A stretch of DNA of 10,888 nt, taken from contig JAKASN010000021.1 of the NCBI GenBank assembly GCA_021819025.1, positions 1 through 10,888 of the forward strand, read 5' to 3'. Under the pieces are notes generated by a model. That model was given only the letters and a program-made list of their open reading frames with translations. It made no database searches and was not told where the DNA came from. Source of the DNA: Actinomycetes bacterium (GTDB lineage: Bacteria; Actinomycetota; Acidimicrobiia; Acidimicrobiales; Acidimicrobiaceae). The position numbers and the translations under genes are program-made. Shown in pieces: positions 2,037 to 10,888 of the stretch (position 1 is its first letter; each line of letters opens with the position of its first letter).

Positions 2037-2111
2037 TAACGAGTTACCGTCTCAATTCGTGGGCAAGTGATCGCGCGCAGCGCCGCTTGAGACTCGACCT
2101 TGAGGAGCAGC

Positions 2112-3293
2112 ATGCAAGGCGCTGAAGATAAAAGTGATCTCGACGAGTTAACCTCGTTGCGACCCACGGGAAGTGGCCGTGCTGCAGTTCAAGCGGAGCG
2201 GCTATGGTTACGGGACTTCCACCCGGGATGGTTTGGTGCAGTGATGGGGACTGCGGTAATTGGTATTATCGCATCGATGAATCCGGGCAAGTTTGCCTCT
2301 TGGGCCAACACGATGCGCTATATCTCCGTCGGGGCAACCGTGCTCGCCGCAGCTCTATTCGTGGTGATCGCAATTCCGTATCTATCGCGTTGGCTGATTC
2401 ATTCCGGTGCTGCGTGGAAGGACATGCGTGATCCAGTAGCTGGGCCTCTACACGGGACATTTCCTGGTGCTATTCTGGTCTTGGCGGCAGCAGTAGCAAA
2501 CGTCGGCCCCCGTGAAATCTCTGTCGGTGCCACCTCGGATATCGTTGCTGGCCTAGCCGTTGTCGGAGTCCCGCTGGCACTCGCGATCAGTCTTCTTTTT
2601 GCCTACCTTCTTTTTACCCTTGATTTGCCGGACGTACGCCTTGTAAATGGTGGATGGTTCATCCCCCCAGTTGTCACCATAATTGTTCCTGTGGTTCTCC
2701 TAACCCTTCTAGGCGACGTCGCTCACCTGACCGCGAGGTTGCTTTTGTTTGCCGCCTACGCCTTCTGGGGAATCGGATTTCTCCTCTTTCTGCTCGTGAT
2801 GGGCTTGCTCCATGATCGCCTTGTCACTCAAGCGCTTCCCCCAGCAGAGATGGCTCCTTCGCTTTGGATCGTACTTGGGCCAGTCGGAGTCGGCACTTCC
2901 GCGCTCATTGGTCTCGGCCATGCTACTCCTGAAATTCTCGGACCCTCGGCAGCGGTGATGGGGATTGTCTCACTGTTAGGGGCAAGTATTCTTTGGGGCT
3001 TCGGTGCGTGGTGGTTGCTTGTGGCGTTGATGTTGCTGGGGCGCTACATAAGGCGTGGTGGAGTTCCCTATGGAATCGGCTGGTGGGCTTTCACCTTCCC
3101 TCTCGGCGCTTTGACCTTGGCGACCGTGGCGCTCGGGAGAGCATGGTCGCTGGCCGCTCTGGCAGACATTTCCCTAGCAATGTTCGTGCTGCTGGTTTTG
3201 CTGTGGCTGATCGTCACGGTGCGTACCCTAGATTCACTTGCCAAGGGGACGCTTTGGGTAAGGACGTTGCCAGCCTCTCCACCCAAGACATGA
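2112..3293 (+). CDS. TDT-family (TehA/SLAC1/Mae1/Ssu1-type) membrane transporter
   Basis: A 393-residue integral membrane protein with about ten hydrophobic helices (roughly 39-55, 68-90, 114-131, 143-170, 181-200, 207-234, 249-269, 277-309, 320-342, 350-374), the TehA/SLAC1 topology. Family-like stretches are HPGWFGAVMGTAVIG near helix 1, HGTFPGA before helix 3, GWFIPPVVTIIVP, LGPVGVGTSALIGLG and GWWAFTFPLGALTLATVALG. Family members carry small anions: tellurite-related (TehA), malate (Mae1), nitrate/chloride (SLAC1) and sulfite (Ssu1). The substrate here cannot be read from the sequence; sulfite or another sulfur anion is an inference from the SQR-like neighbour. The ATG at 2112 is preferred to an in-frame TTG at 2100 because AGGAG at 2103-2107 sits 4 bases before it and overlaps the TTG. 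The 30-40 residue hydrophilic N-terminus is probably cytoplasmic. Confidence 0.88.
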   Translation: MQGAEDKSDLDELTSLRPTGSGRAAVQAERLWLRDFHPGWFGAVMGTAVIGIIASMNPGKFASWANTMRYISVGATVLAAALFVVIAIPYLSRWLIHSGAAWKDMRDPVAGPLHGTFPGAILVLAAAVANVGPREISVGATSDIVAGLAVVGVPLALAISLLFAYLLFTLDLPDVRLVNGGWFIPPVVTIIVPVVLLTLLGDVAHLTARLLLFAAYAFWGIGFLLFLLVMGLLHDRLVTQALPPAEMAPSLWIVLGPVGVGTSALIGLGHATPEILGPSAAVMGIVSLLGASILWGFGAWWLLVALMLLGRYIRRGGVPYGIGWWAFTFPLGALTLATVALGRAWSLAALADISLAMFVLLVLLWLIVTVRTLDSLAKGTLWVRTLPASPPKT

Positions 3294-3415
3294 TCGTGCC
3301 CATGAAATCTAGCTTCCCTAGTAACTTGCTGTTGTGGACGCCGCTGCTGCGATATTAATGATCGGCAGGCAAGTGTTGGCGACAGTGGCGCTTGGAGTGG
3401 ACTTTTGTGATTGGG

Positions 3416-3429
3416 TCGATGCATCGATG
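3416..3429. promoter_or_regulatory. TCGATGCATCGA palindrome / doubled TCGATG upstream of the SQR-like gene
   Basis: Bases 3416-3427 form a perfect 12-bp palindrome, and the extended block reads as TCGATG, CA, TCGATG. It lies 45-58 bases before the SQR-like start, a typical operator position, and shares its hexamer with the doubled motif before the transporter. No convincing -35/-10 is visible around it. The whole 3294-3474 gap otherwise holds only a weak hairpin (CAAGTG 3370-3375 / CGCTTG 3389-3394). Confidence 0.4.
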
Positions 3430-3474
3430 GGCTCGTTCGCCTTCGTAGATCGGTGAATTTGGAGGTTGGAAATA

Positions 3475-4683
3475 ATGCCATATGAAACCAAGCCCCGTGT
3501 AGTGATTCTCGGTGCGGGGTTTGCCGGCTTGAGGATTCTCTACCGACTCGCTGGTAAGGCCGACATCGTTCTCGTTGACCCGAGAGCCACGAGCCTTGCC
3601 AAGCCAGTGCTTCCCGAGGTTGCGTTTGCTGGCAAACCGATTGCGCATGCCAGTTTCCCGATCGCCCCGATAGCCAAGCGGCTTGGCGTTACCTTCATTC
3701 ATGCTGCCGTCGTGGCGATTGACCCTTCGTCGCAGATCGTTGCTACCAGCACTGGGGAGAAGGTCGCCTTTGACTTTCTCATTATCACCCTGGGAGCGAC
3801 CAAGGACTATCGGGCGATTCCCGGCTTGGAGGAGTACGGATACTCGGTTTGTGACGACGAGCATGCGCCACTGCTCTGGGCCGCGGTGGAAAACTTTCGC
3901 GGTGGTCCCGTGGTGACGGGGGCCGCCCTTACGACCTGGGGCACGCGCGTAAAGGTGCCTGAGCTCAAGGCTCCTTGTGAAGGTCCTATTGGTGAGGTGA
4001 TGTTCATGGTCGACTACGCCCTGGCAGGGCGCAAAGTCGGGCATTCGATTTCGGTATTTTCCCCGGGATCGATCTTTTTCGAAGACGTAGGGCCGACCGT
4101 CCATGCAGCCGTGGAACCCCTTATCGCATCCCATGGCATCAAGGTCGTGACGGATAAAGTGTTAACTGCCGTTGAGCCCGGTGGAGTCCAGTTTGGGGAT
4201 GGGACTTCGATGGAATCGGCCCTATCGATAGTGATTCCTCCCTATCGCGGTCCGAAGCTTCTCCTTGAATCGGGACTCGGTGATGAGGCGGGATTTTTGC
4301 CCGTTGATGAAACGATGCGGTCCCTGGATCACCCAAGGATTTATGGCGCCGGAGACGTGACAGCCCTGTCGATGCCCAAGCTCGGCCACATTGCCGTGCA
4401 TCAAGCCGACATCGTGGTTTCAAGCCTTCTTGCGGAGATTACTGGCAAGGGCAAGATACTGAAGTACCAACCGGAGGTATTCTGCATTATGAATCGAGGT
4501 GGAGACCAGGCGACGCTGATTCTTTCGGACTTCCTTTTTGGTGGATCGCGCGATATTGCCAAGAGTGGCCGGTTGGCCCACTTGATGAAGTGGAGCTTTG
4601 ACTCCTGGAGCTTTCACACCCACGGCCACCTTCCTCCAGATGCCCTTAACGAAGGGCTGGAGTTTGTTCTCGAGCACCTCTAA
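3475..4683 (+). CDS. FAD-dependent sulfide:quinone oxidoreductase-like flavoprotein
   Basis: A 402-residue two-dinucleotide-binding-domain flavoprotein. The N-terminal FAD site is VVILGAGFAGLR (9-20, GxGxxG) with an acidic strand end at VLVDPR; the second FAD contact is IYGAGDVTALSMPKLGHIAVHQA (289-311, GAGD). Three cysteines, C126, C168 (APCEGP) and C337 (FCIMNRGG), fall close to the three catalytic cysteines of membrane SQRs (about 128, 160 and 356 in Acidithiobacillus; 124, 156 and 347 in Aquifex). That favours SQR over a type II NADH dehydrogenase, which lacks them. SQR oxidises sulfide to polysulfide at the inner membrane face and reduces quinone. The C-terminus (MKWSFDSWSF and after) may form the amphipathic membrane anchor. 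ATG 3475 is chosen over TTG 3466 because GGAGG (3461-3465) is 9 bases upstream. The closest alternative is a flavocytochrome-c-sulfide-dehydrogenase-like or persulfide-oxidising relative. Confidence 0.8.
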   Translation: MPYETKPRVVILGAGFAGLRILYRLAGKADIVLVDPRATSLAKPVLPEVAFAGKPIAHASFPIAPIAKRLGVTFIHAAVVAIDPSSQIVATSTGEKVAFDFLIITLGATKDYRAIPGLEEYGYSVCDDEHAPLLWAAVENFRGGPVVTGAALTTWGTRVKVPELKAPCEGPIGEVMFMVDYALAGRKVGHSISVFSPGSIFFEDVGPTVHAAVEPLIASHGIKVVTDKVLTAVEPGGVQFGDGTSMESALSIVIPPYRGPKLLLESGLGDEAGFLPVDETMRSLDHPRIYGAGDVTALSMPKLGHIAVHQADIVVSSLLAEITGKGKILKYQPEVFCIMNRGGDQATLILSDFLFGGSRDIAKSGRLAHLMKWSFDSWSFHTHGHLPPDALNEGLEFVLEHL

Positions 4684-4906: not shown

Positions 4907-5386
4907 CTATAGACCGAGGGCACTGAGACCCGGTTCATCGTCGGGGCGACGCCCGAGGGGCCAACGGTATTTGCGCTGTGCTTCGCTGAGCTCCAAGTCG
5001 TTGATGGACGCGTGTCTTTTTGCCATCAACCCAGATTCATTGAACTCCCAATTTTCGTTGCCGTATGACCTGAACCAGCGGCCCGCGTCGTCGTGCCACT
5101 CATAGGCGAAGCGAACGGCGATGCGGTTGTCGGTATATGCCCAAAGCTCCTTGATGAGGCGGTAGTCGAGTTCCTTGGACCATTTCCTCCTTAGGAACGA
5201 CACGATCTCGTCCCGTCCCCGAATGAATTCTGAGCGATTGCGCCACTGGCTGTCGACGGTGTAGGCGAGGGCGACTTTCTCGGGATCTCGAGCGTTCCAG
5301 GCATCTTCGGCGAGACGCACTTTTTGGGCGGCAGTCGCTTGGGTAAACGGGGGGAGAGGAGGTCTGGCCCCTTCTGCTTCGGCCAT
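4907..5386 (-). CDS. DUF1348 family protein, NTF2/SnoaL-like fold
   Basis: A 159-residue protein. From residue 15 on it matches the DUF1348 pattern: [20 protein letters not shown] helix, then a strand with [20 protein letters not shown], a [20 protein letters not shown] segment, the paired strands [27 protein letters not shown], and the closing [11 protein letters not shown]. This is the alpha+beta cone of the NTF2-like superfamily; DUF1348 members are small cytosolic proteins of unknown activity and are often simply called nuclear transport factor 2 family. The start at 5386 is preferred to the longer frame beginning at 5464, because AAGGAG lies 8 bases upstream of this ATG on the minus strand and the extra 26 residues are not family-like. 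It stands alone, convergent to the SQR-like gene. Its upstream region carries a perfect inverted repeat at 5510-5527 that could be its operator. Confidence 0.88.
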
Positions 5387-5509
5387 AGCGTTGGCTCCTT
5401 GGAGCTTGGAGTTGGCAAAGGTCACTGGCAATTCTAGATGAGGTTGGCACGCCGAGATTGCCATTTAGGTCCAGGGTAGGGAGATTTCGGTATATGCCCT
5501 TGAAGGCGC

Positions 5510-6159: not shown

Positions 6160-6924
6160 AGGTGGGCCAGGCGATGGTTTTGGTGCGGATCATCCTAAGT
6201 TGGGTAAGTTCGCCACCGTGGTGCTTCAAGAGCAGATCTTCGAGAGTAGGAGTACAAATCGGGTTGGATACTCCAAGCACGGTGAACTGCCTCACATGCC
6301 ACCGTATTGCCCTGCGAAATGCCTGCCAACGAAGGGGAAGTGCGCGAACAGGTACGCATCGCCTCACCCGACTCGGGCTCGAAGTGAAGATTCTTTAGCT
6401 CGGGAAGGGTCTGGGCGAAGTTCGTTGAAAGCTCAGCGCCAGTCGCTGCACGCTGTTCGAAGGTTGCTAAGGTGCGTCTGCCAAAGCAATAGATCTGGTC
6501 GAGCGGCCGAAGAGTCTTCGCTTGTGTCAATAACGGTGGTAGTAGCGGCTTAAGTTTGGAGCGCCGGCGACTTCCGGACGCTTCATCTAGCTCATCTACT
6601 CGATTTGTTGAGAAACCAGCGCTCTACTGTCCAATTGATGGTCTCTTGCCAGCACCACGAAGGGCGTGATTCGCACGAGCAGGGGTGGCAGGGCATCGGT
6701 GCAAAGGGCGACCTTCAATGGTGGTATCTCCCCCAAGCGGGTGTTGAGAGTGAGTCCAGGTCCGAAAAGCTTCGCCGAGGTGACTGAGGTGAATCAAAAG
6801 GCTCGACGCCGAGTTTTACAGCAACCCTAGCGGGGTTCCATGCGAGGTGGGCAGGATTAAGCATCATGGTGGTATCACACTTGAATCGAGATCCCTGCTC
6901 GCGTATCGAGACCCATAGGCGCAT
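6160..6924 (-). pseudogene. Possible decayed gene (protein-like fragments in shifting frames)
   Basis: Three minus-strand stretches read like real protein but lie in different frames, interrupted by stops. (a) About 6924-6800, including LNPAHLAWNPARVAVKLGV. (b) 6793-6596, including LTLNTRLGEIPPLKVALC and LPPLLVRITPFVVLARDH. (c) About 6598-6370, including LDQIYCFGRRTLATFEQ and AQTLPELKNLHFEPES, with a possible continuation in another frame down to about 6160 (LEDLLLKHHGGELTQLRMI). I do not recognise a family. The pattern would fit a frameshifted, mutation-laden former gene of roughly 250 codons, but chance open frames cannot be excluded. Confidence 0.2.
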
Positions 6925-7089
6925 CTGGAAGGGCAGTTCTTGGTCCTTTACTTGGCCTTGACGGCCGCGAGGAGCCGGGAAGAAGCAAATTTGCCGAGAT
7001 GCATTTCTTGGCCAAGGTGGGACAGAATTGCGCGGGTAGGCGTCGCCTGAGAACTTGCGTTGGAAGCTCCGGACGGGCGCGCAAGACCA

Positions 7090-7110
7090 CTACCTCAATA
7101 AAAAAGGTAG
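7090..7110. promoter_or_regulatory. Inverted repeat CTACCT/AGGTAG before arsR
   Basis: Six-base arms at 7090-7095 and 7105-7110 enclose an AT-rich 9-base centre (CAATAAAAA), ending 26 bases before the likely arsR start. Position and AT-rich core suit an autoregulatory operator, but it does not match the site shared by the dsrE-like gene and arsD. Confidence 0.35.
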
Positions 7111-7136
7111 GCGATGAGGCGTCAAACTCCCTAGAT

Positions 7137-7487
7137 ATGATGAAGTACATGGTACGGCGTCAATTAGAAGTGACCGATGAGGAGTGCTGCAGCCCAGGGC
7201 TCGTCTCGTCGGTGCTACCTCTCGACGATGATCGGCTCGCGCAAATGGCCAAAGCCCTCGGGCATCCCGCGAGGGTGCGGATTTTGCGACTCTTGGCCGA
7301 TCGAGGCGCATGCATTACTGGGGACCTCGTCGCCGAACTTCCACTTGCCCAATCCACAGTGTCAGAGCACCTCCGCATCTTGCGCGATGCTGGTCTCATC
7401 CAAGGTGAAATCGAAGGTCCAAGGACTTCATACTGCATTAACTCGGGGGGATTGTTGGCTCTCAAGGCGGCCGTTCAATCCTTGTGA
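7137..7487 (+). CDS. arsR: ArsR-family As(III)/Sb(III)-responsive repressor
   Basis: A 116-residue (from ATG 7137) winged helix-turn-helix repressor. The core runs from LAQMAKALGHPARVRILRLL through ITGDLVAELPLAQSTVSEHL, with the recognition helix in STVSEHLRILRDAGLI, to the wing (GEIEGPRTSYCIN). Candidate metalloid ligands are the vicinal pair C17-C18 (EECCSPG) and C59 (RGACITG). The 41-residue gap between the second and third Cys closely matches the Cys15/Cys16/Cys55 As(III) site known for Corynebacterium glutamicum ArsR, and differs from the ELCVCDL helix site of plasmid R773 ArsR. The start is uncertain: ATGs at 7137, 7140 and 7149 and a GTG at 7170 are all in frame and none has a strong ribosome site; a longer frame from 6999 adds a basic, non-family N-terminus. 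It heads the arsenic cluster and probably represses the two promoters downstream and possibly its own. Confidence 0.88.
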   Translation: MMKYMVRRQLEVTDEECCSPGLVSSVLPLDDDRLAQMAKALGHPARVRILRLLADRGACITGDLVAELPLAQSTVSEHLRILRDAGLIQGEIEGPRTSYCINSGGLLALKAAVQSL

Positions 7488-7582
7488 AGGCGAGCTGTCC
7501 TAGATAGATCGAAGATCGTCGAATGACGATATACTAAATGGGTAACTGATCATTCGGAGTTGATCCGAGACGGAGGATACTA
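7488..7582 (+). other. Intergenic leader between arsR and the dsrE-like gene
   Basis: This gap contains the operator/promoter at 7513-7535, a small hairpin TCGGA (7554-7558)/TCCGA (7564-7568), and GGAGG at 7572-7576 that serves the next gene. Confidence 0.5.
7513..7535 (+). promoter_or_regulatory. Candidate ArsR operator overlapping a TATACT -10 element
   Basis: AGATCG (7513-7518), six variable bases and GACGATATAC (7525-7534) recur with identical spacing before arsD (8781-8802). Within it ATCGTC (7515-7520) and GACGAT (7525-7530) form a perfect inverted repeat around GAAT. TATACT at 7530-7535 is a good -10 hexamer, so a bound dimer would block polymerase. No consensus -35 is visible 17 bases upstream. 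It lies about 50 bases before the dsrE-like start. Confidence 0.6.
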
Positions 7583-7939
7583 GTGCCCAAGACGGTGATA
7601 TTTATCTTTCATGACGACGATGCCTCCCTAAACGCTGGATCGCATGTTGCGGAGCGCATACGCCAGGTGGCCCAGGAACAGAAGGTCGAGCTCGAAGTGT
7701 TTTGCTTTGGGCCGGCTCAAGGTGCCTTGAGCGATGAGACCGACAACCCTGTACGTATTGAGTACCGAGAACAGATCGACGCGCTTGTCGCAGCCGGAGT
7801 TCCGGTTGGAGCATGCTTGAATGCCGCCACTGCAAACGGAAGTGTTGATGAGTTGACCGGGCGGGGTATCGCATTGCAGTTTGCTCGCGACGCCTTTGCC
7901 CGTTATGGGCTCGAAGGCGCGTCAGTGGTGAGTTTTTGA
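7583..7939 (+). CDS. DsrE-family protein
   Basis: A 118-residue protein with the single-domain DsrE/DsrF-like fold: first strand KTVIFIFHDDD, a helix with HVAERIRQVAQEQ, a second strand VELEVFCFGPAQGAL, a helix REQIDALVAAGV, then the strand and family-type Cys in VPVGACLNAA (C78), and a C-terminal helix ending in the strand ASVVSF. C41 is a second possible thiol. Family members (DsrE, TusD, small DsrE-like proteins) relay persulfide sulfur or sit beside sulfur-metabolism genes. The GTG start is supported by GGAGG at 7572-7576, 6 bases upstream. The next gene begins 12 bases after the stop, so they are an operon. Inside an arsenic cluster a role with thiolated arsenic, persulfide or a thiol cofactor is inference. 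Confidence 0.85.
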   Translation: MPKTVIFIFHDDDASLNAGSHVAERIRQVAQEQKVELEVFCFGPAQGALSDETDNPVRIEYREQIDALVAAGVPVGACLNAATANGSVDELTGRGIALQFARDAFARYGLEGASVVSF

Positions 7940-7950
7940 TCGGAGATGCC

Positions 7951-8781
7951 ATGACGAAGAGCGATGAGGGTTTTTCCGATTCCAGCCCCGACGACGGGCG
8001 GAGCTGGTTGGTGCCTTACTGGTTGGGCGAGGCGGTGGATTTGCCTCACTTCGAGGTGATTGACACCCGTTCTGCCCAGGGCCGTCTCGAGAAGCGAAGC
8101 AAAACGGTGACTATCGCAGACCTCATCCTCTTCCACGGGCACGCCTGTGACGGACTAATTCGCGGAGCATACGCGATGCGGGCACTTGCCGATGTCGCCT
8201 TCGCCAAGGGTGTCTTCGACCGAAGCGACTTGACGGTGGTCTCCAAGAACAGCCCGTGTCTCGGTGACGTTGCCGCGTATCTGACCGGAGGACGCGTGCG
8301 CTTTGGAACTCATCGCCTTGACAACGAACTTGGCGTGGGTTTTGTAATTTGTAAACATTCCAGCGGTGAAGTGTTTCAGGTTCGCGAGGAGCCGGGTTTC
8401 TTCCCGGCAATCATAACTGCGTGGGAGGCGGCGCTGCTCGACGAAGCTATCGTCGCCAACGGCACTTTGACTGCAGAAGAGAAGGCTGAGATGGTTGCCG
8501 TCAATGAGGCACAGCAATGGGACTGGGTTCGGAGCGTGCTTCTTCCCACCAGACCTGCCGAGCACTACTTTGTGTCGCGCCTAGTCGATTTCAAGCTGCC
8601 CGATCCGATTTACCAGGCAAGACGAACCGACGTGGTAAACCGCAACGTTCCTGGCGCCAAGGACTATCACAGTCCTTATGAGTACAGTATCGACACTCGC
8701 AGTCGCAAGCGCGATGTGCCAAGCATGGACATTTGGGTGGAGAAGTACTTCGAGGGACCGCCCCGTATAAGCTCCGACTAA
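7951..8781 (+). CDS. FmdE-domain protein in the arsenic cluster
   Basis: A 276-residue protein whose middle part (about 52-165) matches the FmdE domain. The signature helix start is LILFHGHACDGLIRGAYAMR (59-78), corresponding to the HGHxCPG motif with H62, H64 and C66 as likely metal ligands. The second conserved Cys lies in NSPCLGDVAAYLTGG (C103, D106), and a strand pair follows with RLDNELGVGFVICK. FmdE was named for a protein associated with molybdenum formylmethanofuran dehydrogenase; many bacterial FmdE proteins have no known function and are found far from methanogens. Here D replaces the usual P (HACDG), and the typical C-terminal zinc ribbon is absent. Instead there is an unrecognised tail of about 110 residues, rich in charged and aromatic residues. 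ATG 7951 (GGAG at 7942-7945) is preferred to TTG 7936, which overlaps the dsrE-like stop. Substrate unknown; a metal- or metalloid-binding role is inference. Confidence 0.75.
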   Translation: MTKSDEGFSDSSPDDGRSWLVPYWLGEAVDLPHFEVIDTRSAQGRLEKRSKTVTIADLILFHGHACDGLIRGAYAMRALADVAFAKGVFDRSDLTVVSKNSPCLGDVAAYLTGGRVRFGTHRLDNELGVGFVICKHSSGEVFQVREEPGFFPAIITAWEAALLDEAIVANGTLTAEEKAEMVAVNEAQQWDWVRSVLLPTRPAEHYFVSRLVDFKLPDPIYQARRTDVVNRNVPGAKDYHSPYEYSIDTRSRKRDVPSMDIWVEKYFEGPPRISSD

Positions 8782-8803
8782 GATCGAGAATCGACGATAT
8801 ACG
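8781..8803 (+). promoter_or_regulatory. Second copy of the candidate ArsR operator, before arsD
   Basis: AGATCG (8781-8786), six variable bases and GACGATATAC (8793-8802) match 7513-7534 at 17 of 22 positions with no gap. Both copies contain ATCG-N8-CGAT. TATACG (8798-8803) sits where TATACT does in the first copy but is a weaker -10. It begins at the last base of the FmdE-gene stop codon and ends 72 bases before arsD, suggesting a separate, co-regulated arsD-arsA transcript. A small hairpin TTGCC/GGCAA follows at 8824-8839. Confidence 0.55.
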
Positions 8804-8860
8804 ATATTGCCTGTCTTGATGCCTTGCCGACTTAGGCAAACTGCGATGCGATGAATATAG

Positions 8861-8865
8861 GGAGG
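8861..8865 (+). promoter_or_regulatory. Ribosome binding site of arsD
   Basis: GGAGG lies 9 bases before ATG 8875. It decides against the in-frame ATG at 8851, which lies upstream of it. Confidence 0.75.
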
Positions 8866-8874
8866 ATCTTGGAA

Positions 8875-9525
8875 ATGCCAACGATCGAAGTATACGATCC
8901 TGCAATGTGCTGTTCAACGGGCGTGTGTGGGCCTAGCGCCGATGCCGACCTTGCGCGTTTTGCCGGGGATTTGGATTGGCTGGCTTCAGTCGGCGTGGAG
9001 GTTGAACGCTATAACCTCGGAAATGAGCCTGGTCGCTTTGCCCAAAACGTACACGTGCGTGACTTGCTCACCGAAAAAGGAGAGGATGCTCTTCCGGTGG
9101 TCATGGTCGCCGAGAGGGTTGTCGCCTCGGGGTATTATCCAAGGCGTGATGAGCTCGCGAGTTGGGCGGGTCTCGCCGATGCGGTTGCGATCGTTCCCAA
9201 CGCGGTGGTAGTTGAGCTCACCGCCATCGGCGCTGCGGTTGCGTCAAATTGCGAGCCCTGTCTCAGGTACCATTTCGACGCCGTTATCAAGTTGGGAATT
9301 TCACCGGAACAGGTTTCGCTGGCGATCAGAACCGCACAGACCGTGAAAGAGACCCCTGCTGCCGCAATCGCCAACCTCGCCGAGGAGTTGTTGGCTTCCA
9401 CCCTTGGCAATGATGGAAAAGCTGAGCGAACAGAGGGTGCCAATCCAGATGGCGCCGAGCCATGCTGTGGAGGAGCTTCCCCCGCTGCTGCTTCCCCGCT
9501 TAAAATTTCTACCGGATGTTGCTGA
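8875..9525 (+). CDS. arsD: ArsD metallochaperone fused to an AhpD/CMD-like thiol-redox domain
   Basis: A 216-residue protein, almost twice the usual ArsD length of about 120. Residues 1-105 are ArsD: IEVYDPAMCCSTGVCGP with C12, C13 and C18, exactly the As(III)-transfer cysteines of E. coli R773 ArsD, followed by a thioredoxin-like fold (VEVERYNL, ALPVVMVAERVVASGYYP). Residues 108-175 are an alkylhydroperoxidase/carboxymuconolactone-decarboxylase-like domain with E114, C126-x2-C129 and H133 (CEPCLRYH). That spacing equals the catalytic E118/C130/C133/H137 set of Mycobacterium AhpD. The tail (176-216) ends in two vicinal pairs, C197-C198 and C215-C216, perhaps equivalents of the C-terminal CC pairs of classical ArsD. 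Known ArsD passes As(III)/Sb(III) from glutathione-like thiols to ArsA; the redox domain could keep its cysteines reduced or couple to a dithiol pool (inference). arsA starts 12 bases downstream. Confidence 0.88.
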   Translation: MPTIEVYDPAMCCSTGVCGPSADADLARFAGDLDWLASVGVEVERYNLGNEPGRFAQNVHVRDLLTEKGEDALPVVMVAERVVASGYYPRRDELASWAGLADAVAIVPNAVVVELTAIGAAVASNCEPCLRYHFDAVIKLGISPEQVSLAIRTAQTVKETPAAAIANLAEELLASTLGNDGKAERTEGANPDGAEPCCGGASPAAASPLKISTGCC

Positions 9526-9537
9526 GGTTATAGGTAA

Positions 9538-10888
9538 GTGCTTGAGGAACTCATCGGAGAGCCGACTCGTTACCTTTTTTTCACCGGAAAGGGCGGGGTG
9601 GGGAAGACCTCTTTGTCCGTGGCGACAGCGATTGCTTTGGCCGACAGTGGCCGCCGGGTGTTGCTGGTGAGTACTGACCCTGCCTCTAACTTATCTGAAG
9701 TTTTGGAGAGCAAAGTCGGGATTCATCCCGATCCGATCTCTGGCGTCGAGGGGCTCTGGGCGATGGATGTGGATCCGCTCGCAGCGGCGGCCGAATATCG
9801 CGAACGCGTCGTGGGTCCATATCGGGGAATCTTGCCAGAGGGGGTGATCGCGGGAATTGAAGAGCAGTTGTCTGGTGCATGTACGGTAGAGATTGCGGCC
9901 TTCGACCGCTTCACCGGGTTGTTGGTTGACGCTTCTGACTATGACCATGTGGTATTTGACACAGCTCCCACCGGACACACCCTGCGGCTATTGGCTTTGC
10001 CGGGGGCTTGGACAGAGTTTCTCGATACCAACAGCGCTGGGGTGACGTGCATCGGCCCTCTCTCGGGCTTGACCGAGCAACGAGAGCGTTATCGCGAGGC
10101 GCTTGCGACGCTCTCGAATCCGCTTCGCACAACCGTGGTTCTAGTTTCGCGCCCCGAAGCGGATGCGATAGAAGAGGTGCTTCGCTCTTCGATTGAACTT
10201 ACTGCAGCTGGCCTAAGTAATCAGCGCCTGGTACTCAACGGCATCTTTACCCCGAGCAGTACCGATCCCGTCGCGCTGCGTTTTGCTTCACGCCAGCAGG
10301 AGGTGCTGGGGGGGATCGCAAAGCGTTTCGAGGGATTCGAGGTCGGTACCGTGGCGCTGCAACCCTATTCTCCCATCGGGGTTGCGTCGTTGCGCTCGTT
10401 CCTCCGATCGGATTCGGGCGAGGTGGCCGCCGCGGGGTATTCTGAGGCCCCCTCTGTAGAGGTGGATAAATTCTCCGAACTCCTCGACGAAATCGTTGCT
10501 TCGCGACGCGGCTTAATAATGACCGTGGGAAAGGGAGGCGTCGGAAAAACCACCATCGCTGGCGCCATTGCATGTGCCGTGGCAGCGCGAGGAGTGGAGG
10601 TGGTGTTATCCACCACGGATCCCGCTGCGCATCTGACGGGACTACTCGGTGGCGAAACCTTGCCCGAGGGCCTGCGCGTTGAGCGAATCGATCCAGCGGA
10701 AGTGACTTCGTCATATGCGGCCGAGGTCGTCGCCACCTTAGGGCCGGAACTTGAGCAAGAGGGCCTAGAAGTACTAATGGAGGATCTCAGGTCTCCTTGC
10801 ACCGAGGAGATCGCGGTCTTTCGTGCATTTGCCGATGTTGTGGGACGCGCTCAAGAAAGCGTGGTGGTGTTGGATACCGCGCCAGATC
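9538..10888 (+). CDS. arsA: ArsA arsenite/antimonite-translocating ATPase, 3' truncated
   Basis: 450 codons are visible; the gene runs off the right edge. It is the two-halved ATPase that drives an arsenite efflux pump. The A1 half has P-loop GKGGVGKTS (17-25) and switch motif DTAPTGHTLRLLALPG from D141. The A2 half has P-loop GKGGVGKTT (331-339) and reaches DTAPD at 446-450. The three metalloid-binding cysteines of E. coli ArsA (113, 172, 422) have counterparts C115 (SGACTVEIAAF), C171 (GVTCIGPLSG) and C421 (RSPCTEEIAVF), so it should be allosterically activated by As(III)/Sb(III). The GTG at 9538 directly follows an in-frame TAA (9535-9537) and is the first usable start; GAGGT at 9524-9528, overlapping the arsD stop, is 9 bases upstream. 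This implies coupling to arsD. The A2 switch shows D where T or S is usual, at the last complete codon. Confidence 0.93.
   Translation, partial: MLEELIGEPTRYLFFTGKGGVGKTSLSVATAIALADSGRRVLLVSTDPASNLSEVLESKVGIHPDPISGVEGLWAMDVDPLAAAAEYRERVVGPYRGILPEGVIAGIEEQLSGACTVEIAAFDRFTGLLVDASDYDHVVFDTAPTGHTLRLLALPGAWTEFLDTNSAGVTCIGPLSGLTEQRERYREALATLSNPLRTTVVLVSRPEADAIEEVLRSSIELTAAGLSNQRLVLNGIFTPSSTDPVALRFASRQQEVLGGIAKRFEGFEVGTVALQPYSPIGVASLRSFLRSDSGEVAAAGYSEAPSVEVDKFSELLDEIVASRRGLIMTVGKGGVGKTTIAGAIACAVAARGVEVVLSTTDPAAHLTGLLGGETLPEGLRVERIDPAEVTSSYAAEVVATLGPELEQEGLEVLMEDLRSPCTEEIAVFRAFADVVGRAQESVVVLDTAPD

Follow-up and report, generated by a model that had tools for sequence, protein, structure and literature searches.

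Among the described arsenic resistance (ars) systems, the operons of the arsRDABC kind, such as that of E. coli R773 (PMC8060452), come closest to the locus considered here, which lies in a stretch of 10,888 nucleotides (the window, meaning this whole stretch) at the start of contig JAKASN010000021.1 of an Actinomycetes bacterium from the Acidimicrobiaceae with an assembly of 2.74 Mb. Like those operons, the locus encodes an ArsR-type repressor, ArsD and ArsA, with Acr3/ArsB and ArsC present in its relatives; unlike them, it contains the genes dsrE and fmdE, a fusion of ArsD with a CMD domain and two predicted 23-bp operators, one of which belongs to dsrE-fmdE. The gene order is arsR–dsrE–fmdE–arsD–arsA, all on the (+) strand, with arsA cut by the contig end. 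This arrangement had been proposed in an original prediction made from the DNA letters, and it was borne out by the Pfam and NF profile matches in the window.

Accessory genes for thiol and redox functions have been reported within ars operons, namely CcdA, thioredoxin and the redox-active disulfide protein 2 (PMC2963123), and the locus resembles these operons in this respect, although the proteins differ. In Thioalkalivibrio, DsrE/F-like genes change under arsenite, with a role left open; unlike the window pair, they are not placed in an ars operon and no FmdE is named in the accessible text (PMC6620896). A DsrE gene has also been found 3' of an arsC-like gene, and according to the abstract of that study the arsC-like gene does not contribute to resistance (PMC5360009). 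Among the literature matches listed, which leave most subscription papers uncovered, none reports dsrE or fmdE as part of an ars operon. Moreover, in a term search DsrE, FmdE and carboxymuconolactone occurred 0 times in a paper on ArsA operons (PMC2963123), and neither DsrE nor FmdE occurred in papers on ars transporters (PMC4435449), ars distribution (PMC6205960) and Alicyclobacillus mali (PMC8060452).

The predicted 23-bp operator of the pair

Judged from sequence, dsrE-fmdE is very probably a member of the arsenic regulon, in the form of a two-gene accessory module. The features on which this assignment is based are the following:

7137..7487, + strand: arsR, ArsR/SmtB-family repressor with Cys17, Cys18, Cys59 and Cys100; exact start uncertain
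7508..7530, no strand: operator 1, ATCGAAGATCGTCGAATGACGAT, 5' of dsrE-fmdE
7583..7939, + strand: dsrE, 118 aa, DsrE/YchN fold, invariant Cys78
7951..8781, + strand: fmdE, 276 aa, FmdE core domain with FHGHAC...NSPC motif (H62, H64, C66, C103)
8783..8805, no strand: operator 2, ATCGAGAATCGACGATATACGAT, 5' of arsD-arsA
8875..9525, + strand: arsD, a fusion with a CMD/AhpD-type domain (CEPC motif) and a tail with Cys pairs
9538..10888, + strand: arsA, arsenite-pump ATPase, incomplete at the contig end

The start codon of dsrE is GTG, preceded by a GGAGGA site; the open reading frame of arsD opens at 8851, and the ATG at 8875 is preferred on the basis of relatives and of a GGAGG site.

The two matching operator-like sites already noticed in the original prediction proved to be copies of a 23-bp palindrome, ATCG-N3-WTCGWCGA-N4-CGAT, located at 7508–7530 (5' of dsrE) and at 8783–8805 (5' of arsD), so that dsrE-fmdE and arsD-arsA carry the same predicted operator. 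With up to one mismatch allowed, the pattern is found at those two places only in the whole assembly, and the reversed control pattern has no match. A reading of the repeated GACGATATAC as a simple −10 promoter was rejected, since the full palindrome is conserved and the TATAC part is not.

Three other loci (L007, L009 and L010) have the gene order of the window, with the operator in both places; the clusters of L007 and L010 read arsR-dsrE-fmdE-arsD-arsA-acr3-arsC. When a matrix trained on eight arsD-side sites from other loci was scanned against the window and these three loci, the dsrE-side and arsD-side sites were the top two places in all four. The dsrE site of the window scored 22.7 bits with this held-out matrix, whereas the maximum in shuffled windows had a mean of 9.1 and reached 18.3 at the highest (200 shuffles). 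In the eight loci with the order arsR–arsD–arsA–dsrE–fmdE (L011, L013, L015, L017, L019, L023, L028 and L029), as well as in the near-duplicates L014 and L018 with the same order, the operator is located between arsR and arsD. In L012, where the order is arsR–dsrE–transposase genes–fmdE and arsDA is absent, it is found 5' of arsR; the interruption in this Conexibacter sp. S30A1 locus (6451-10768) consists of pieces of Mutator-family and ISAZ013-type transposases.

The specificity of the palindrome was also apparent at genome scale: 15 of 22 genomes with related loci match it with at most one mismatch, 14 of them perfectly, while the reversed control has 0 matches in 22/22. All four perfect operators found away from the pair locus stand at ars genes or ars-gene fragments:

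L093: perfect operator at arsD/arsA fragments
L094: perfect operator at arsR–arsD–arsA
L095: perfect operator at arsR with acr3–arsC
L096: perfect operator at arsB and arsR

The one-mismatch places fetched from contigs without known ars genes are L097 and L098 (G458:C19 and two in G470 were left out); here tblastn gave no ars gene, and L097 has only a weak DsrE-type match. A third strong operator is found in L010 (6748), 5' of an MFS transporter gene, and a weaker one in L015 (8996), between the genes for OsmC and a ferredoxin–FAD/NAD reductase; judging from these additional sites, the operator regulon may extend beyond the ars cluster. Taken as a prediction, the co-regulation originally claimed is thus upheld by an operator conserved across loci and by the outcome of the held-out matrix.

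Linkage of the pair to ars genes in bacteria and archaea

A single scan of a genome-contig collection with an FmdE alignment gave 26 loci, in which genes were counted on the basis of tblastn. These correspond to about 23 independent loci, given the near-duplicates L013/L014, L015/L016 and L017/L018, and they derive mostly from fragmented metagenome-assembled genomes, so that the labels of L006 and L024–L026 ('Acidobacteria') may stem from wrong binning; two further entries, L044 and L047, are the same contigs as L011 and L009. An arsA, arsD, acr3 or arsB gene lies within 10 kb of the pair in 19 of the 26 loci (L007, L009, L010, L011, L013–L019, L021, L022, L023, L026, L028, L029, L030 and L031), the arsB match of L030 and the arsA match of L031 being partial, and L012, with its arsR and operator, is counted apart. 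A DsrE match adjoins fmdE in 24/26 loci (partial in L031), the exceptions being L027, where no DsrE was found, and L012 with its intervening transposase genes. In L021, L022 and L026 an ArsI/CadI-type gene stands directly 5' of dsrE–fmdE–acr3–arsC; the L022 protein matches NF041414 with 180.5 bits (cut-off 116), and the versions of L021 and L026 are 85% identical to it.

The linkage extends beyond Actinomycetota-type loci. When 72,556 plasmid records were searched by tblastn, two FmdE matches emerged. The first, on plasmid p1 of Alicyclobacillus sp. SO9, lies in the order FAD oxidoreductase–CMD–arsD–arsA–arsA–dsrE–fmdE–arsR–arsB–arsC–arsC–trxB, and its dsrE, annotated as hypothetical, encodes a protein 36.7% identical to the window DsrE. 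In the second, on a Sulfuricella plasmid, fmdE stands after ATP-synthase genes; a rhodanese gene is nearby, and the 20 kb contain no ars gene. Furthermore, an FmdE protein is present in 22 of the 77 genomes of the archaeal family of L030. In the resulting archaeal set of 21 loci (L030 and 20 of the 22 matches, some with short flanks), dsrE adjoins fmdE in 20, the exception being L137, where the contig ends at fmdE. An arsR-type gene is found within 5 kb in 20 of these loci, arsB in 10, a gene for a sulfide:quinone oxidoreductase (SQR)-like protein in 11, DUF1641 in 12, SLAC1 in 8 and CMD in 7. The fullest layout (L120, L123, L124 and L125) reads Lrp-type–CMD–SLAC1–(arsB on the other strand)–dsrE–fmdE–arsR–(DUF1641 and SQR-like on the other strand); where both occur, the DUF1641 gene (L120 6167-6613 and relatives) adjoins the SQR-like gene. 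All 21 ArsR-type proteins of this group (20 archaeal and one from Alicyclobacillus) have a CxC within their first 70 residues, as LCVC in 20 of them, which we take to be the classical As(III) site.

In an FmdE tree of 42 proteins, the ars-linked label was given to L012, L030 and all 17 archaeal rows newly added, although many of the archaeal rows have just an arsR-type gene. A long, well-supported branch splits the actinobacterial-type proteins from the archaeal/Alicyclobacillus set, and ars linkage is found on both sides. The seven unlinked rows are the pairs L006+L008 and L024+L025 and the singles L020, L027 and L033; the label changes five times on the tree, with at least four changes forced by starred branches, a count equalled in 20 of 500 shuffles. 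Because L027 and L033 branch low on their respective sides, the tree leaves the ancestral linkage unsettled.

Several observations weigh against a fixed bond between the pair and arsenic resistance. By tblastn, six of the 26 loci have no ars gene in reach (L006, L008, L020, L024, L025 and L027), with flanks cut by contig ends to 291 bases before dsrE in L020 and to 427 after the fmdE match in L006. Within the window's own family, fmdE is present in only five of 42 genomes (two copies broken or truncated), dsrE in seven (two partial or weak) and an ArsD match in nine (two weak, one broken), while 35 of the 42 have neither dsrE nor fmdE. Three further family copies of the pair (L045, L046 and L051) showed no arsA, arsD, acr3 or arsB in a tblastn of the fetched stretch; the fmdE of L046 contains stops and L051 is a fragment. 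Loci L072, L073 and L074 have the order operator–arsD–arsA–dsrE with no adjacent fmdE (the genome of L074 holds another dsrE–fmdE elsewhere, at L045), so DsrE can be retained without FmdE. L075 (operator–arsD–arsA) and L094 (a second arsR-arsD-arsA) lack the pair, which is therefore dispensable for arsDA. Finally, no strong operator was found in L021, L022 and L026 (best scores 17.6, 13.9 and 12.2 bits), on the Alicyclobacillus plasmid L032 (11.1 bits) or in L030, although all five carry the pair and ars genes, and control there would thus use another site.

The unlinked loci and the many family genomes without either gene could be taken to mean that the pair stands beside ars genes by chance. 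Such a reading is extremely improbable and is rejected by the neighbourhood and operator data: the 19/26 loci linked within 10 kb compare with some 1-2% expected (our own rough estimate, for a 20-kb stretch of a 2-3 Mb genome that holds one or two ars clusters), the operator is conserved, and the association recurs in Actinomycetota-type loci, in an archaeal family and on a Bacillota plasmid. In this respect the doubt already cast on simple adjacency by the original prediction was well placed, and the neighbourhood search that it proposed found the pair not normally away from ars genes. The association between the pair and ars genes reaches further than the window alone could reveal; at the same time, dsrE-fmdE is an add-on and not a strict partnership, and DsrE may have a role independent of FmdE. 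In relatives, some copies of fmdE and of arsD/arsA are decayed or truncated (G014:C47 (L046), G449:C37, G449:C370 and G014:C54 (L076)), which suggests that the cluster has often been gained and lost.

Protein families, sulfur neighbours and possible chemistry

The window FmdE matches PF02663 with 38.1 bits (cut-off 22.9). All 25 aligned proteins retain its residues H62, H64, C66 and C103, and the FHGHxC motif followed by a later Cys is present in all 18 archaeal FmdE proteins checked (17 new and L030). By motif these four residues match FHGHxC and the ligands His15, His17, Cys19 and Cys55 of the structure 2glz, which hold Zn or Ni; an unexplained ligand in one of the 2gvi crystal forms lies 1.8 A from the cysteine equivalent to C103, and the structure paper suggests only possible roles (PMC2954224). 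The window protein differs from the PF02663 structures 2glz, 2gvi and 3d00 in showing 11-13% identity in structural alignments and no second Pfam domain. As regards the C-terminal treble-clef zinc finger that some members have, no Pfam domain was recognised for it, and model confidence is low over parts of the C-terminal stretch. The window gene also adjoins ars genes and a DsrE-like gene, not formylmethanofuran dehydrogenase. Catalytic fmd/fwd subunits were not found among the ten window proteins scanned, and a role in formylmethanofuran metabolism was rejected on the absence of fmd/fwd genes in the window.

The DsrE protein of the window scores 21.5 bits with PF02635, below the cut-off of 22.7, and is therefore called DsrE-like; an archaeal relative in L120 passes with 24.8 bits, and the DsrE-like fold is recognisable in the window protein. 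C78 is present in 23 of 23 aligned proteins as the sole fully invariant cysteine, and a motif check found it by pattern in 18 of 19 proteins, the remaining one (L122) having the residue in its sequence. In two weak profile matches, to MTH1491 and to 2fb6, the residue falls on a cysteine, and we take its position to be that of the sulfur-carrying cysteine of DsrE and TusD. Like the DsrE/TusD/YchN proteins (2hy5, 2d1p, 1jx7 and 1l1s), the window DsrE has this fold and the cysteine of the GVxxxAC segment, the latter judged from the profile alignments to MTH1491 and 2fb6; unlike those systems, it lies just under the PF02635 cut-off, has FmdE as its partner and is under predicted arsenic-type control. 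No DsrEFH/TusBCD partner (DsrF/DsrH or TusB/TusC) was found among the neighbours scanned, some neighbours lying outside the scan.

Two genes 5' of arsR belong to families that recur near the pair elsewhere:

3475..4683, + strand: SQR type III-like flavoprotein, likely associate
2100..3293, + strand: SLAC1/TDT-family transporter, possible associate

These genes occupy window 2100-4683, and both families recur beside archaeal dsrE-fmdE. The flavoprotein matches NF049943 with 100.8 bits, under the cut-off of 525, and is for this reason called SQR-like only; a 56% identical gene lies 5' of arsR in L007. The transporter matches PF03595 with 217.4 bits, and SLAC1/TDT genes are found near the pair or the operator in L012, L017/L018, L045 (fragments), L093 and 8 of the 21 archaeal loci. 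Further thiol/redox partners are the CMD fusion, trxB, and OsmC with the ferredoxin-FAD/NAD reductase at the L015 operator. A ThiF-rhodanese gene is located near the unlinked pair in L024 (10922-12085) and L025 (8915-10078), and a rhodanese gene near an fmdE without ars genes in L033 (11747-12211); these neighbours are a further hint of sulfur transfer.

It is rather likely, from the sequence data, that dsrE-fmdE performs some sulfur- or thiol-linked step. Such a step would agree with the fold and the invariant cysteine of DsrE, with the His2Cys2 site that FmdE carries and with the CMD, trxB, SQR-like and TDT/SLAC1 neighbours; its substrate may be a thioarsenical, a damaged protein or a complex of As(III) with a thiol. 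In the specific dethiolation form favoured here, which is tentative, FmdE, whose His2Cys2 site is open and of the Zn/Ni type, and the DsrE-like protein, which has one TusD-like cysteine, would act jointly on arsenic-bound sulfur or thiols in the cytoplasm: FmdE would bind the arsenic-sulfur substrate (a thioarsenical or As(III)-thiol, possibly an As(III)-persulfide), Cys78 of DsrE would accept the sulfur as a persulfide, the freed As(III) would pass to ArsD-ArsA or straight to the pump (ArsB/Acr3), and the nearby SQR-like flavoprotein might deal with the released sulfide. We know of no described ars gene that provides such an arsenic-sulfur detoxification step. With regard to the original prediction as a whole, the co-regulation and the ars linkage have held, while the sulfur or thiol step is retained as a hypothesis.

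On the other side of the balance, the solved FmdE relatives have no known substrate, C41 of DsrE is not universal, and the archaeal CMD protein, read full-length (240 aa), lacks a CxxC. Acidiplasma, which presumably belongs to the same archaeal class as L030, offers an expression result of the same tendency. In one published transcriptome its FmdE gene (WMT55891) is more than 14-fold down on sulfur, pyrite and arsenopyrite relative to ferrous iron (PMC12524180). This drop would speak against simple arsenic induction only if the gene is the ars-linked FmdE.

The conserved thiols of the FmdE site and the position of the pair beside ArsD and ArsA would equally suit a relay without sulfur chemistry, in which FmdE (C66, C103) and the DsrE cysteines would bind As(III) and pass it to those of ArsD, as an additional metallochaperone step. 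As(III) sites usually consist of three thiols, however, and DsrE has one fully invariant cysteine only; moreover, the pair occurs also where neither ArsD nor ArsA but only ArsB, Acr3 or an arsR-type gene was found (L021, L022, L026 and the 21 archaeal loci). Most PF02663 genes are said to adjoin genes for metal-ion transporters, in keeping with a relay, but the metal in the His2Cys2 site of the solved relative is Zn or Ni (PMC2954224), and on balance such a relay is unlikely.

Repair or protection is a rather doubtful alternative, in which the arsenic would remain untouched and the pair would supply persulfide for the repair of Fe-S or Zn-thiolate proteins damaged by As(III), or for the synthesis of a protective thiol. 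It agrees with the DsrE/YchN fold, with OsmC and the ferredoxin reductase at the L015 operator, with the trxB of Alicyclobacillus and with the SQR-like gene, but no gene for Fe-S assembly or thiol synthesis was seen among the selected neighbours scanned with Pfam. Lastly, the recurrence of SQR-like and SLAC1/TDT genes near the pair in both domains, its patchy and sometimes decayed copies and the ThiF-rhodanese neighbours of L024/L025 recall a sulfide/sulfur detoxification module (SQR-like, DsrE, TDT) merely co-inherited on metal-resistance islands. This is quite improbable, given that the pair has its own operator copy in four loci, that the other perfect sites in the searched genomes stand at arsenic genes, and that SQR-like or SLAC1 genes were not seen in many dsrE-fmdE-ars loci, some of which have short flanks.

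Core ars proteins, other window genes and significance

The window contains ArsR, ArsD and ArsA, and Acr3, ArsB and ArsC are found in relatives, as in an ars cluster. ArsR has a winged-helix ArsR domain (PF01022, 56.1 bits; NF033788, 72.7 bits against a cut-off of 55), and the arsenic-responsive ArsR 6j0e is among its PDB matches, aligned over residues 15-95. Its C17, C59 and C100 are present in 12 of 12 aligned relatives and C18 in 8 of 12; by sequence, these conserved cysteines appear able to hold As(III), as in an As(III) sensor, and we assume that they correspond to the site of the Corynebacterium ArsR.

ArsD matches PF06953 (132.6 bits), PF02627 (36 bits) and NF033727 (117.9 bits, cut-off 90) and shows in the alignment the cysteine motif MCCSTGVC of an ArsD metallochaperone; the L073 row, in a wrong reading frame, was left out of this alignment. 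The CMD domain was undetected in ArsD of L011 and L072, and ArsD as read in L075 is too short for it. A joint loss of CMD and FmdE was considered and rejected: L011, which is from Ferrithrix thermotolerans DSM 19514, has FmdE and no CMD, hence the two are not strictly linked. A separate gene directly 5' of arsD encodes the CMD protein on the Alicyclobacillus plasmid, and this protein, too, has a Cys-rich tail. ArsA matches PF02374 with 261.5 bits and TIGR04291 with 571.7 bits, below the cut-off of 650, this match stopping at profile position 443 of 565, which corresponds to the contig end.

Elsewhere in the window, at 555-1734, an ECF-type sigma factor gene precedes one whose product weakly matches zf-HC2 and RskA-like profiles; both are unrelated to dsrE-fmdE. 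A DUF1348 (SnoaL-like) gene at 4907-5464 (-) lies between the SQR-like gene and arsR, and in the approximately 1.5 kb after it, a stretch outside the profile scans, no convincing gene was noticed.

The pair is probably an undescribed component of arsenic resistance in these microbes. With it, one FmdE subfamily gains a concrete context, that of bacterial and archaeal ars clusters, almost invariably with a DsrE-fold protein as neighbour, and the conserved 23-bp operator makes control by ArsR directly testable. If the sulfur step is true, arsenic resistance in these organisms would include the handling of arsenic–sulfur species, with a bearing on bioleaching and arsenic cycling; and if the dethiolation is true, this would be the first function for FmdE proteins outside methanogenesis.

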